The notes below the pieces were generated by a model. The model was not told the DNA's origin, did not search any database, and was given only the letters and a program-made list of their open reading frames with translations. A stretch of 59,313 bases of DNA, from assembly GCA_913042885.1 (NCBI GenBank), contig CAJWLW010000003.1:1-59313 (forward strand). The letters run 5' to 3'. Positions 18,473 through 23,853 of this stretch are shown one piece after another; position 1 is the stretch's first letter, and each line of letters opens with the position of its first letter. This DNA comes from an uncultured Lentisphaeria bacterium (GTDB taxonomy: Bacteria; Verrucomicrobiota; Lentisphaeria; JABSQK01; CAJWLW01). The position numbers were made by a program, and so were the translations under genes.

Positions 18473-18500
18473 AATATATCGGGCCGAACCGGACGGTCAA
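18473..18500 (-). promoter_or_regulatory. Candidate sigma70-type promoter for the phosphodiesterase gene
   Basis: On the minus strand TTGACC (18500-18495), 16 bases, then TATATT (18478-18473) lies 71 bases upstream of the ATG at 18402. The -35 box overlaps the stop codon of the preceding gene. Pattern-based only. Confidence 0.45.
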
Positions 18501-21500
18501 TCTTCCCGATAGGGCCGTCCTTGCCGGTAGAGTTCGAGGCGTTTGGCGATCTTTTCCGCCAGTCGATTGGATTCGGCATCGGAAACCAGTGAGAGTGCCG
18601 CTTCTGCTGTCGCCACAGCCCGTTCGAACTGTGCCGCTGCGGCATAGGCTGCAGCCAATGTGTCGAGCATCGTCGGGTTCTCATTGTCAGTCAATTCGAC
18701 AGCGCGTTCCGCATGGCGGACAGCCGCCTCTGCTTGACGAATGTCGCTGTCGGCGGCGGTCGCCAGGATCCACGCCAGGGCGTTCAGGGGCAACGGCCAG
18801 TCCGGCTTCAGGCGGATGCATTGCTCAAAGTGTCTACAAGCCTCATCACCGCGTCCCGTGCTTGCCAGTGTCAACCCCAGGCGATGATGCCCATCGGCGA
18901 AGTCGGGTTTGAGGGTCACTGCCTGCTGAAAATGGTGGATCGCTTCGTCGATCCTGCCCTGCTGACGATACGCCAGCGCCAGATAAAAGTGCGCTTTGGC
19001 ATATTTCGGATCACGCTGCAGTACCTGCTGATAGTGCTCGATCGCGTCATCGAGGTGGCGCTGCGAGCCCAGGACATTACCCAGTTTGTAGTGCACCCGC
19101 GTCGAGTCGGGCGCCAGCGCCAGCGCCTTTCGATAATGGCGGATCGCCTCATCCGGACGTTCCTGCTTTTGTCGTGCCTCGGCCAGGCGCACATGGGCAT
19201 CGGCCAGGTCGCGGTCCATAAGGGACCGTTCCTCTGCAGTCAGCGACGGCGGCCGCGGCCGTGTGGCATGCTGTTCGACTGCGAGCTCAAGATAGCGGCT
19301 CGCATCGTCTAAATACAGGTCCTCGAAGATACGAGCCATCGAGCGAAGATCCCGTTCGTCCGGCGCCCGGTACCAGCGGCCGGCAAACGGCACCGATGCA
19401 TCGCGCCACTGCTGACGTGAGACCTCGAGGTTCGCCACATCCTGTAACAAGCCGGCAATGTCGACTCGCCCCCGGTAGATCACCGCCAGTCGTCCCTCGC
19501 TGTCCAGCAGGAGACTGACAGGGACCGCAAAGGGCGCAGTCATGACGAAGAGTAGATCCTGCACCCGCTCGATCTTGTCGAGCAGCTCGGGCGTTGCCAG
19601 GCCGGACTCGAACGGGAATGCGATTCGCTCGACAAGCCGCTGTGCATCGGCAGGCTGCGTGCGATTGTCCTCCGCCAGCCCGTCGACGCTCAAGGCGAGC
19701 ACCTCGAGACCGGCAGCACGCAATGTCTCTTTCTGTGTCGTGAATTCCTTGAGCTCGGCAATGCACGGTACACACCAGCTGGCCCACAGGTTGATCAGCA
19801 ATGGTTTTGACCGTGGCGCGACGGCATGTTCCGTGGCGCTGCCGAACTGCCTGTACGGCAGCCGCGGCATCGGCAGGCGGCTGGACAACAGAATTTTCGC
19901 CTGTTCAGTACTCTCGGGTACAACCTGCGGCGCCGGCGGCAGGACCGGGGTCTTTCGTGGCGGCCGCCATTCCACGGGCGCACCGCTGTTCTGAATCAAC
20001 ACATAGCGTCTATCGGCTGCAATGTCGCTGAACTGTTCAGGCTCCCCGCCGGGCCATCGCACGATGATGTGCTGGATATCCGGGCTGCGGCCCAATCCGA
20101 AATGCAGCCACTTGCTCGATTGCGAAATGAAGCCGTCACCGGCGTATAGCGTTTGAATCAATCGAGGCTGTTCAGTGTTTGGTGGCCGGGATTCAGAGTT
20201 TCGCGGTTTTACGACGACTTCCACCCGGGCGCCGATGGCGTCGCGGTTGCAGGTCGTGCCGCGGAGTTTGACGGCGACGAAGCTGTGCCCGGTCGCGTTG
20301 TTGTCGGTTCGGTTCAACATCAGGCGCAGACGCGGGCTAGTGCGATTTTTCAGCCATATGTCGAGATCACCGTCATGGTCCCAGTCCACCGTTCCCAGCG
20401 CGCGGGCGTCATCGGCGAAATCGAGGCCGGTGGCGGCTGAGACGTTGGCGAAGCGCGTGCCGCCACAATTGAGAAAAGCCGTGTTGCGCTCGTTTCCGCT
20501 CCACGATTGCCCCTGCTGCACGAGTCGTCCCATGGCCTGGAACAGCGCCAGATACCCGTCCGGCGGGTAGGCGACTTCGGCGTCCCTCGGTGAAAGCGAC
20601 ACGACCTGCCGCCAGAAGAAACTTCACAAGTCACCGCTGTCGGAGTTTGTCACAAAGCCGTTGGCAACAACCAGGTCGAGCCAGGCATCATTGTTGAAGT
20701 CGACGAACTTCGAAGCCCAGGCCCAGCGGCCCTTGGTCACGCCGGCGGCTTCGCTGACGTCGTTGAAGGTGCCGTCCCCAGCGTTGGTAAACAGGGTGTT
20801 GCCGCGCGCCAGCCGCTGGAAGTTCGCGACGGTGCCGGACCGGTGCGCCTGGGTGACCATGGGTTGATAGGTGACCCGGCTGCCGGCACTCGAGAACATG
20901 TTGCCGACGTACAGGTCCATGAACCCATCGCGATTGCAGTCGCCCCAGGAGACGGACATGCCCGTGGCCATGTCCTCGACACCAGCTTCCGGGGCGACAT
21001 CCGCGAACTGCCCGCCGTCATTACGGTACAGGCTGTTGCGGCCGAAATCGTTGGCAACGTAAAGATCGACGTCGCCATCGTTGTCATAGTCTTCCCAGAC
21101 GGCAGCGTAGCTGAAGCGCGTGTTGTTCGCGTCGAGCCCGGTTGCCTCGGTCACATTAACGAACCTGAAGTCACCGTCGTTGCGGAACAGCGCATTGGCG
21201 CCACCGTTGTTGGCATCGTAAAACGGGAACGGCGCCGGCAGCGGCGGTCGGTCAAGCGTCGTTGTGTCGCCGCGGTAGCAGCAGACGAAAACATCCAGAT
21301 CACCGTCTTCGTCGTAGTCGGCGGCGGCAAGTGAGTACGCTTCGGCAACGGCCCGCGGGCGCGCCCGCAGCGTGAACCGTCCATCACCGTCGTTTTCCAG
21401 CAGCAGCAATACCGGATCCGCGGCCACCACCAGATCCTGATCGCCGTCGTTGTCGAGATCGATCAGCAGTGCTGAGGTCGAGTATTCGAGCCAATCGACA

Positions 21501-22576
21501 CCGGCTGCCGCGGCGACATCGGTAACCGTCCCGTCAACGTTCTGAACATAGAGGCGGTTGGGCAGCCCGCCACCGTCACAGGCATAGAGGTCCTCGAGGT
21601 CGTCCCCGTTGACGTCACCGAGCGCCAGTCCGTGGAAGCCGTGGAAGATAACCATCAAACTGCGCGGCAGCCGGGTCAGCCAGTGATCGATGCCCGGTAA
21701 CACCTGATCCTGATACGACGCATTGCGCCCCATCACCGATGCCGTGCAGTCCGCGAACAGCTGGCCGCCGTTCACCTTGGTCACGACTTCGTCATACGCC
21801 ACCAGGCCGATCCACTGCAAACGCGGCTGCGGCGCGGATTCGGCCTTGGGAAATGACCAGCGGCATTGCCAGATCGCGTTCTGCTGCACCCCCGACTCAT
21901 TGGTGCGGTTGCTGAGTTCACAGAACAGGCGGGTGGTGAAGAATGCCTCGGAATTGTCGATCCTAACCACCTTGAAACTTGCCCGGATGTCATCACCGAC
22001 GCCCAAACCTGCGACCAGGTGTTTCAGCGCCTTGGCGAGACTGTTCCCGATTTGCGACGATGTCGACTCGCCGTTCCATCGGAGCACACGCACGGTCCCG
22101 TCATTCAAGACCTCATCGAGCGGTGCCGGCCGCAGGTCATCACAGGCGAAGTCGTCGCTGGCCAGGCTCGAAACATGCCCGGAGTCGATTCGCTCTGGAT
22201 GCTCGATGAGCTCAGCCATGACCTTGAGTTGCACGTCGACCGCATCGCTCAGCACCTCAGTGGCCCATCCGTCACGTGCGGGGTCGACCTTATCGGCCAA
22301 CTCATCGACAAGCGTTTTCGGGCGGCTTGGACGGGTGATATCACCGATGGGAATCGGCGCATCATCCGCACCCGCGGCTGCCTGGTCGGGTCGGGCGGCG
22401 GGCGACGCGGCGTCCGGCCTGTCCCCGGCAATGCCGCCCGGCTGGCCCTGGAACTGTCGCCACAGCAGTACCCCGATCACCAGCACTGCTCCGATCAGCA
22501 ACGCCGGTGCTGCCCGGATAAGCCGCCGCGGCCGGGATGCAGGCCGCTTTACTTTATTAGTGTCGGTGCGCCCCAT
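18497..22576 (-). CDS. Membrane-anchored FG-GAP/UnbV-thioredoxin-TPR protein, predicted selenoprotein (UGA at 20626-20624)
   Basis: Read through one in-frame UGA this is a single 1359-residue protein. Order: basic N-terminus and membrane segment (22-39, then WRQF); an unassigned region; FG-GAP/VCBS propeller repeats (about 310-740; GDVNGDDLEDLYACDG and DNDGDQDL calcium-binding loops); ASPIC/UnbV domain (about 765-863, ending in IIVRWPGGEPEQF); TlpA/ResA-like thioredoxin domain with WCVPC (Cys935 and Cys938); and C-terminal TPRs (about 1138-1340). The UGA is codon 651 in the context DL-U-SFFWRQVV, and the propeller resumes beyond it (TVDWDHDGDLDIW). A conventional reading gives two proteins, 22576-20624 and one from GTG 20602, the second with no plausible start signal and half a propeller. 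Selenocysteine insertion is therefore favoured; a nonsense mutation is the alternative. It overlaps the preceding gene by 28 bases. Confidence 0.82.
20596..20626 (-). promoter_or_regulatory. Candidate bacterial SECIS element after the in-frame UGA
   Basis: Eleven bases after the UGA (20626-20624) the mRNA folds a 17-nt hairpin at 20612-20596: arms GCGGCA and UGUCGC (six pairs, one G-U) and loop GGUCG. The Escherichia coli fdhF SECIS also has a 17-nt upper hairpin with the string GCAGGUC around its loop and nearly the same distance to the UGA. This hairpin carries GCAGGUC too, one base closer to the UGA. The hairpin lies in the codons for W-R-Q-V-V-S, so protein constraint may shape part of it. 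Confidence 0.72.
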
Positions 22577-23853
22577 ACCACGTGATTGTTTGAATCATGC
22601 CAGTCCCTGGTCAAGGCCCGGACCCGCCACCGTAGAATGCCGCCGCGCGCAACATCTACCGCCACTCGCTGGGCGGCGGACGCACCGGCGAATTTATCGT
22701 GAAAGAGGATATTCTCGTCCAGTTGAATGGTCACGTCAACGCAGCCTTTTTCACCGAGCTCCGCGTGAAGTCCGACGGCCAGCTCACAGCGCTGATAGAC
22801 GCCCCTGGGTATGCCGTAGGAAAGGACGTACTCATAATGGGCTCCGGTCCCGAGGCCGGTATCGAAAGTGACCGGCCGGCGCTCGCCGTTGTCTTCCAGC
22901 AAGAGGCGAAGCGGCACGGTTGTCGTTCTGTCGGACAGTGAAAAGCGTTTGACGATCGGTGATGCGACGCCGTAACAGCCGCCGAGATGGTTCGGGTATT
23001 CAACCGGGAAAAGGTCGGTCATGTCGACGTTGTCCAGCGCTGTGGCCGCGGCATCGGCGAAGGAATCCGTTGCGAGACAGTAGACCGTGTGAAAAATGTC
23101 CATGAGCAGCTCGGCAAGCTTCGTGGCGATGGCGGCGCGGATCGCCGTTTCGCCCGCCTGGTCGCGTGCATAGCTGCTCTGGATCAAGGGGATCAGGTTG
23201 TGGCGGCTGTGGCGATTCACCTCGCGGTAGCGGTGGTATAGATGAAACGCCGCCTCGGCAACGGATGATCCAAGGAGTTGTGGCCTGTATCCGGCCAGGT
23301 CCACGTCGGGGACGCGTTCACCGAGAAAGGCACTGGCGCTGCCGTGCGGCAGGTCGGGCGGCGGCGGAAAGAACTCGTTGAACATGAACGGATGCACACC
23401 GGCCGGACCGTGCAGTGCATGCATGAATCCGGCATTGTCCTGGCAGACATGACATAGCCAGTTCATGAACCCGGCGGCATCCCGCATATTGCCTGCTTTC
23501 GCACAACGGACAACAGCCGCGAGATAGTAGTCGAAGCCGTCCATGATAAAGCGCCAGTTCTGCTCCGTATCCGTCTGCCAGGTACCGCCGCTCTCCGTCG
23601 TCTCCGACCCGATCGCCTCGACCCAGAAGTAATGGAACGGCACGCCCATGATCTCGAGCGCGTACGGCGCTGCTTTTGCCTGCGAATCGACCGGTGCGTG
23701 GGCGGCATAGCCATCCGGATCACCAAGATTCTCACCTATCGTACCGCCGTCGGCATCGTGCCCCAGAAAGAAGCAGTTGCGGCCGTCCTGCCAAAACGCC
23801 TGCTCTTTAGCCGGCAGTGCATCCAGGACCATTCTGTTGGTGTCGTGGGCCAT
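22549..23853 (-). CDS. Phospholipase C/S1-P1-like helical domain protein with C-terminal NPCBM module
   Basis: A 434-residue protein. The first ~290 residues are helical, with a histidine-rich motif (LCHVCQDNAGFMHALHG, about 154-170) matching the zinc-site helix of the secreted giant at 45218 (FAHAVEDRSSTVHAWDG) and a shared DIFHTVYCLA helix. These resemble zinc-dependent phospholipase C and S1/P1 nucleases. The family's N-terminal tryptophan ligand and signal peptide are missing, so the metal site is incomplete or altered. The last ~100 residues are an NPCBM/NEW2-type sugar-binding domain (YEYVLSYGIPRGVYQRCELAVGL, split here as YEYVLSYGI and CELAVGL, then ILRWRVRAL and HVVWGAPTLI). A period-7 repeat array lies directly upstream of the ATG. 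Function unknown; sugar-linked phosphodiester or lipid substrates are possible. Confidence 0.8.
   Translation of the reverse strand: MAHDTNRMVLDALPAKEQAFWQDGRNCFFLGHDADGGTIGENLGDPDGYAAHAPVDSQAKAAPYALEIMGVPFHYFWVEAIGSETTESGGTWQTDTEQNWRFIMDGFDYYLAAVVRCAKAGNMRDAAGFMNWLCHVCQDNAGFMHALHGPAGVHPFMFNEFFPPPPDLPHGSASAFLGERVPDVDLAGYRPQLLGSSVAEAAFHLYHRYREVNRHSRHNLIPLIQSSYARDQAGETAIRAAIATKLAELLMDIFHTVYCLATDSFADAAATALDNVDMTDLFPVEYPNHLGGCYGVASPIVKRFSLSDRTTTVPLRLLLEDNGERRPVTFDTGLGTGAHYEYVLSYGIPRGVYQRCELAVGLHAELGEKGCVDVTIQLDENILFHDKFAGASAAQRVAVDVARGGILRWRVRALTRDWHDSNNHVVWGAPTLIK

Follow-up and report, generated by a model that had tools for sequence, protein, structure and literature searches.

Most of the selenoproteins characterised so far share a thioredoxin-like fold, according to a 2026 review (PMC13188914), and catalogued members such as the UGC-containing TlpA carry selenocysteine (Sec) in the redox motif itself (UGC, UxxC). 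Selenoproteins have also been described in Planctomycetes (PMC4807772), in a paper whose main text, as far as it was available, does not contain the term FG-GAP. Proteins with FG-GAP repeats are known in another setting: hydrazine-synthase-like gene clusters carry one that is annotated as CRTAC1 family (PMC12758564, sections available). Here we describe a gene that brings these themes together. It lies in a stretch of 59,313 nucleotides, referred to throughout as the window, that represents contig CAJWLW010000003.1 (positions 1 to 59,313) of an uncultured Lentisphaeria bacterium (GenBank assembly GCA_913042885.1). The gene probably encodes a membrane-anchored extracytoplasmic selenoprotein, in which the in-frame UGA at codon 651 is read as Sec by means of a hairpin resembling a selenocysteine insertion sequence (SECIS), and in which the selenium would be recycled by a thioredoxin domain of the same chain, through its WCVPC motif. 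The initial annotation, made from the letters alone, had predicted a selenoprotein here. Comparative sequence evidence supports that prediction: the UGA is likely read as Sec, given that TGA is exclusively conserved among the stops at this site, the frame is open beyond it, the hairpin covaries, the elongation factor SelB is encoded in the genomes of relatives, and the UGA occurs together with the thioredoxin CxxC and with Lys202.

The reading frame starts on the minus strand with an ATG at 22576, runs for 650 codons to the TGA at 20626-20624 (codon 651), and continues unshifted to a terminal TGA at 18499-18497; translation confirms the course that the initial annotation had given it. The stop-free stretches on either side of the UGA measure 656 and 708 codons. 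Such an arrangement is not rare in the window, where ten stops (six TGA, three TAA and one TAG) are flanked on each side by at least 200 open codons. An open frame past a stop thus proves nothing alone, and the case rests on the relatives. Pfam finds FG-GAP repeats and a UnbV_ASPIC domain with E-values of 3.8e-39 and 2.5e-16, respectively. The propeller repeats had been noted on both sides of the UGA, and the predicted propeller does extend both ways. The structural model matches murine CRTAC1 (PDB 9etn) over model residues 205-805 (window residues 264-864), and Foldseek matches the thioredoxin part to ResA/TlpA. In this prediction, an FG-GAP propeller of the CRTAC1 type precedes the ASPIC/UnbV domain, and Sec651 is the first residue of a helix inside the propeller. 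Compared with CRTAC1, the window protein has in addition an N-terminal domain, a thioredoxin domain in cis, tetratricopeptide repeats (TPRs) and the in-frame UGA. When the family profile was searched against PDB sequences, the best 60 of 400 hits were all to the TPR part. The VIA-align list is filled by propellers and so says nothing about other folds.

The thioredoxin fold with its CxxC is recognised by Pfam and Foldseek and by the motif WCVPC at residues 934-938. The domain is similar to the TlpA/ResA oxidoreductases in fold and motif. It differs from them in being fused behind a propeller; the first motif Cys comes 284 residues after the predicted Sec, which is not part of the thioredoxin fold. 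The same difference separates the protein from the catalogued thioredoxin-like selenoproteins, as described in the available sections of PMC13188914. It shares with them a UGA for Sec, a redox setting and a TlpA-like domain, but its own motif is all Cys and its Sec would sit in the propeller.

The UGA is a conserved feature of the relatives. A protein search with the N-terminal half gave at least 120 relatives among the matches listed, with identities of 46-94%, and every one of these 120 stops at the residue that precedes codon 651. One of them, 94% identical, belongs to a cluster of 14 sequences on two contigs and has the identical end, which argues against a read error. The databases thus store the UGA forms as truncated proteins. 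At the DNA level, close loci from Planctomycetota and Akkermansiaceae/Roseibacillus metagenome-assembled genomes (MAGs), and more distant loci from Acidobacteria and Gemmatimonadetes MAGs, carry a TGA after which the frame goes on with S-F-F-W-R-Q-V-V or a similar sequence. Among 160 distinct DNA sites, the window included, 112 have TGA, none has TAA or TAG, and 48 have a sense codon; the frame is open beyond the TGA, and coding sequence is conserved on both sides of it in independent lineages. By locus title or genome, UGA forms occur in Planctomycetota, Verrucomicrobiota, Acidobacteriota, Gemmatimonadota, Myxococcota and Latescibacterota.

Surveys of draft genomes gave a similar picture. Among 159 Planctomycetota genomes, with at most 14 candidates scored in each, 31 carry the family (E<=1e-30), and 65 of 71 matches hold one TGA. 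With a non-UGA homologue as the query, 54 of 392 genomes gave a strong match (at most two candidates scored per genome); 70 of the 80 matches contain TGA, two of them twice and 68 just once, and ten contain none. In both surveys, a TGA in a match whose locus was not fetched was scored as lying inside the match, wherever placed. One Akkermansiaceae genome has 13 family matches, 11 of them with TGA. The distribution is patchy: of 155 Verrucomicrobiota genomes sampled, this genome, the centre of the sample, is the one that has the family, and the others gave no match at E<=1e-25. The family therefore spans several phyla and is present in several copies in some genomes.

Homologues annotated at full length tell a different part of the story. 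The length limits of that search left out pieces of 650 residues, and UGA forms are missing from the set for this reason. At the site, the 129 aligned rows have Asp in 47, Ser in 21, Cys in ten, and other residues in the remainder. Viewed in isolation, this mixture would count against a functional Sec and would fit the refuting condition of unrelated residues that the initial annotation had named. The initial annotation had looked for Cys or UGA at this position in homologues. The UGA part of that expectation held, with TGA at 112 of 112 stop-bearing sites and 120 of 120 N-terminal halves ending there; the Cys part did so for a minority of the full-length homologues.

A bacterial SECIS is a hairpin that follows the UGA at a short distance and carries G and U in a small apical loop. 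The 17-nucleotide hairpin that had been reported 11 nucleotides beyond the UGA is found at 20612-20596, and it fits this definition in its position and in its small apical loop with GU. With pairing scored at one fixed register, +12 to +17 against +23 to +28, the full six-pair stem is present at 56 of 82 distinct UGA sites; 500 synonymous-codon randomisations gave 1.9 such sites on average and never more than 8. In the larger set, six pairs form at 85 of 112 UGA sites and at none of 21 non-UGA homologues (Fisher 1.5e-11), these controls being the non-TGA sites with Trp at +4, with the 27 of 48 that lack this Trp omitted. When only sites with an equal amino-acid motif are compared, the counts are 77 of 83 and 0 of 6.

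Covariation points in the same direction. In 102 aligned UGA rows, 86.9% of cells are paired, against 80.4% after shuffling, and 33 cells are changed on both sides, against 7.8; neither value, nor the covariation score, was reached in any of 500 shuffles. The 21 non-UGA rows have 43.7% of cells paired, with no excess over shuffles. The pairing can be followed at a single codon. In every one of 71 S-x-x-W-R-[QH]-V sites, position 3 of the Arg codon and position 1 of the codon four further on make a pair: G-U (29), A-U (26), C-G (10), U-A (3) or G-C (3). The hairpin thus behaves like a SECIS, as had been proposed, by randomisation, by non-UGA controls and by covariation, and it likely serves as a bacterial SECIS for SelB and selenocysteine tRNA (tRNA-Sec).

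The hairpin had also been likened to the SECIS of E. coli fdhF, with which it shares the string GCAGGUC. The fdhF letters used for this comparison match 5369 records, at least three of them annotated fdhF. The distance from the UGA indeed differs by one base, the string lying at +15 to +21 here and at +16 to +22 there. The flanking stem and the encoded peptide differ, and in the window the string also codes for part of the R-Q-V motif. A chance overlap of coding W-R-Q-V with the fdhF string was considered and rejected: the string is coding, yet sites of equal motif form six pairs when they have UGA and not when they lack it, in the numbers given above.

Decoding of UGA as Sec depends on SelB and tRNA-Sec, and the genomes of the relatives were searched for both. 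SelB exceeds the curated cut-off in all 14 genomes of the first UGA loci, compared with 2 of 14 control genomes. Among the 159 Planctomycetota, it is present in 29 of 31 family-bearing genomes and in 80 of 128 others (p 0.0005). Of 41 genomes of mixed phyla, 12 carry UGA forms, and SelB is present in 10 of these, in one case below the curated cut-off; it is present in 13 of the other 29 (p 0.04). Matches to tRNA-Sec over the cut-off occur in 11 of the 14 genomes of the first loci; they weigh little because 5 of the 14 controls also match.

The initial annotation had pointed to a redox-active Sec beside a WCxxC thioredoxin domain, and co-variation bears out a link between the two. The thioredoxin CxxC is kept in 81 of 87 UGA forms and in 19 of 102 forms with neither Sec nor Cys, counts that omit rows without an aligned thioredoxin segment (24 of 111 UGA, 4 of 13 Cys and 11 of 113 other rows). 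Lys is found at position 202 in 59 of 59 UGA forms and in 2 of 78 of the forms that lack both Sec and Cys, rows without a residue aligned there being omitted (52 UGA, 4 Cys and 35 other). The set excludes 14 multi-propeller proteins. Both links survive a tree-based test. Gln571, Arg588 and Arg591 are likewise commoner in UGA forms.

A mechanism can be proposed from these observations. UGA 651 would be decoded as Sec with the help of the downstream hairpin, SelB and tRNA-Sec, and the product would be anchored in the membrane and face the extracytoplasmic side. There the selenolate, perhaps near Lys202, Gln571, Arg588 and Arg591, could attack an oxidised substrate, for which a peroxide, a disulfide or a sulfoxide are candidates. 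The TlpA/ResA-like domain may then reduce the selenium in cis via WCVPC, which would probably be recharged from the cytoplasm by a transporter of the DsbD/CcdA type. If Sec, CxxC and Lys202 form one redox unit, lineages with Asp, Ser, Glu or Ala at the site are expected to lack the other two, and they mostly do.

Several results weigh against this interpretation. SelB is common in Planctomycetota that lack the family (the 80 of 128 above). Four UGA genomes have no SelB at the thresholds used, and in a fifth, G341, it falls below the curated cut-off; of the four, three have SelA and three a tRNA-Sec match over the cut-off, and one, G075, is also without SelA over the cut-off. Among the non-UGA homologues, Asp or Ser (68 of 129 rows) far outnumber Cys (10). 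The Cys forms keep CxxC in 3 of 9 cases and Lys202 in 1 of 9, so that Cys there is no simple replacement for Sec. CxxC is absent from 6 of the 87 UGA forms, and a first, shorter tree (191 rows, 262 columns) gave two supported pairs only. As for the hairpin, 27 of the 112 UGA sites do not reach the full stem at the register used, two of the five measures of covariation are unclear (pairs changed on both sides and further pair types, with 41 and 136 of 500 shuffles as high), and RNAalifold finds no consensus structure in the 102-row UGA alignment, which mixes registers. Folded alone, the window hairpin is unexceptional (z -1.59 for 37 nucleotides and -0.34 for 41), and in a 57-nucleotide stretch of the window the minimum-energy fold is built from different pairs. 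What exceeds chance comes from the comparison of relatives: TGA at every stop-bearing site, and six pairs at most UGA sites and at none of the 21 non-UGA homologues.

These results have to be set against explanations that do without Sec. The gene might be a pseudogene, its UGA due to a simple nonsense mutation or to an error in sequencing. The many unrelated residues at the site in non-UGA homologues could make one more change look harmless, and frames open past a stop are, as said, not rare in the window. This explanation was rejected because the 94% identical relative ends at the same residue and TGA is the stop at all 112 stop-bearing sites, in several phyla; the frame beyond is conserved and the hairpin covaries, and we regard a dead gene as very improbable. 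A regulated stop would account for the same length of the N-terminal product predicted in all 120 relatives listed. It would yield a 650-residue protein, with some low-level read-through by ordinary tRNAs that the downstream hairpin could stimulate. Such a stop, however, would cut a propeller conserved on both sides. Neither UAA nor UAG was seen in place of UGA, SelB accompanies the first loci in all 14 genomes, and the UGA co-varies with a CxxC encoded beyond it, a point in favour of a redox protein of full length; the regulated stop is therefore improbable. Least credible of all is an altered genetic code with UGA as a sense codon. The frame is open through the UGA, as that would require, but the window gene itself uses TGA (18499-18497) as its terminal stop, which contradicts the idea, and most relatives' matches hold just one TGA (65 of 71 and 68 of 80).

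A different kind of alternative accepts Sec but not its partnership with the cis domain: Sec could be a metal ligand or have a structural role, or it could be served by an external thioredoxin. Many homologues replace Sec with Asp, Ser or Glu, as happens at ligand positions, and some UGA rows have no aligned thioredoxin segment (24 of 111) or no CxxC (6 of 87). Against this alternative stands the association of Sec with the CxxC in cis, which holds once the tree is taken into account, and we consider the alternative rather unlikely, if worth keeping in mind. A selenoprotein recycled by its own WCVPC domain remains the reading that we prefer.

The family appears to be new. The initial annotation placed it outside the described selenoproteins, and FG-GAP, VCBS, CRTAC1 and UnbV families are indeed not in the table of 119 prokaryotic selenoprotein families of 2026, as available in PMC13188914. 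The terms FG-GAP, VCBS and CRTAC1 are missing from the available main texts of the deep-Sep paper (PMC12013277) and of a 2022 review (PMC9312934). Literature searches linking selenoproteins to FG-GAP or VCBS repeats brought up no related paper, judged by title and abstract. NCBIfam release 20 has no model that matches the N-terminal half at E<=1e-5; with the whole protein, no model extends over the site. As judged from the main texts and family collections compared, we conclude with high, if not complete, confidence that this probable selenoprotein family is new, as is its structural setting. More broadly, we lean towards the view that the CRTAC1-type propellers of Planctomycetota, marine Akkermansiaceae, Acidobacteriota, Gemmatimonadota, Myxococcota and Latescibacterota make up a very copy-rich, unrecognised selenoprotein superfamily, an extracytoplasmic enzyme class with a propeller-borne Sec and a cis thioredoxin. 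If so, it would be among the most copy-rich of the unrecognised selenoprotein superfamilies, and the beta-propeller would be a new fold for Sec. Annotation pipelines would then be cutting an extracytoplasmic enzyme class in half at the UGA, leaving truncated pieces in the databases. The window gene would add a large family and a new structural context for Sec, give CRTAC1/ASPIC proteins a testable function, and offer a natural experiment on the gain and loss of Sec.

Variants within the family deserve description. Cys-containing homologues at the Sec position comprise the ten full-length proteins and a distant clade (loci L050/L169, L075 and L126) with the motif D-[YF]-C-x-x-[YF]-W, whose loci do not form the six-pair hairpin. 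One UGA subfamily (L107, L112, L113, L114, L140) lacks the Trp and reads D-L-U-L-P-F-A or similar, with the UGA in its usual place and the best hairpins in other registers. Another (L032, L127, L145, L158) reads D-G-U-x-C-[VL]-W, with a Cys two residues past Sec; in L032 and L158 some 200 residues follow Sec and no residue is aligned at CxxC. Loci L006, L115 and L118, on Verrucomicrobiales/Akkermansiaceae contigs, have two UGA-form genes near one another in the same orientation, and each of the two has the six-pair hairpin.

Table. Features of the Sec gene and its surroundings, with positions in the window
Feature	Position	Strand	Basis
Read-through coding sequence, 1359 residues incl. predicted Sec651, terminal TGA	18497..22576	-	translation; Pfam FG-GAP_3, UnbV_ASPIC, AhpC-TSA, TPR
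In-frame UGA, codon 651, predicted Sec codon	20624..20626	-	translation; TGA at 112/112 stop-bearing sites incl. window
Hairpin GCGGCA-GGUCG-UGUCGC, 17 nucleotides, 6-base-pair stem, 5-nucleotide loop GGUCG, 11 nucleotides past UGA	20596..20612	-
Apical loop GU	20604..20605	-	invariant in 102/102 UGA rows; 10/21 non-UGA rows
Hydrophobic N-terminal segment, residues 22-39, probable membrane anchor	22460..22513	-	by eye from sequence
Lys202 codon	21971..21973	-	alignment of UGA vs other forms
UnbV_ASPIC domain, residues 780-858, C-terminal to FG-GAP propeller	20003..20239	-	Pfam; CRTAC1 fold
TlpA/ResA-like thioredoxin domain, residues 922-1031	19484..19813	-	Pfam AhpC-TSA E 6.1e-9; Foldseek ResA/TlpA
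WCVPC active-site motif, residues 934-938, putative electron donor to Sec651	19763..19777	-	alignment, co-variation
Main tetratricopeptide repeats, residues about 1116-1260	18797..19231	-	Pfam
Upstream NPCBM-domain gene, 28-nucleotide overlap with Sec gene start, probable same operon	22549..23853	-

Within the window, ARAGORN found no tRNA and Rfam gave no match at the gathering threshold; a plasmid search gave one weak match only. A class-III aminotransferase gene of the window is 99% identical to a single named match, which belongs to Lentisphaeria and points to this group as the probable source. The neighbouring genes between 1132 and 59262 include DUF4838, Glyco_hydro_42M, BNR_2 and GFO_IDH_MocA proteins and an N_methyl pseudopilin-like protein, and they suggest a glycan-using bacterium.
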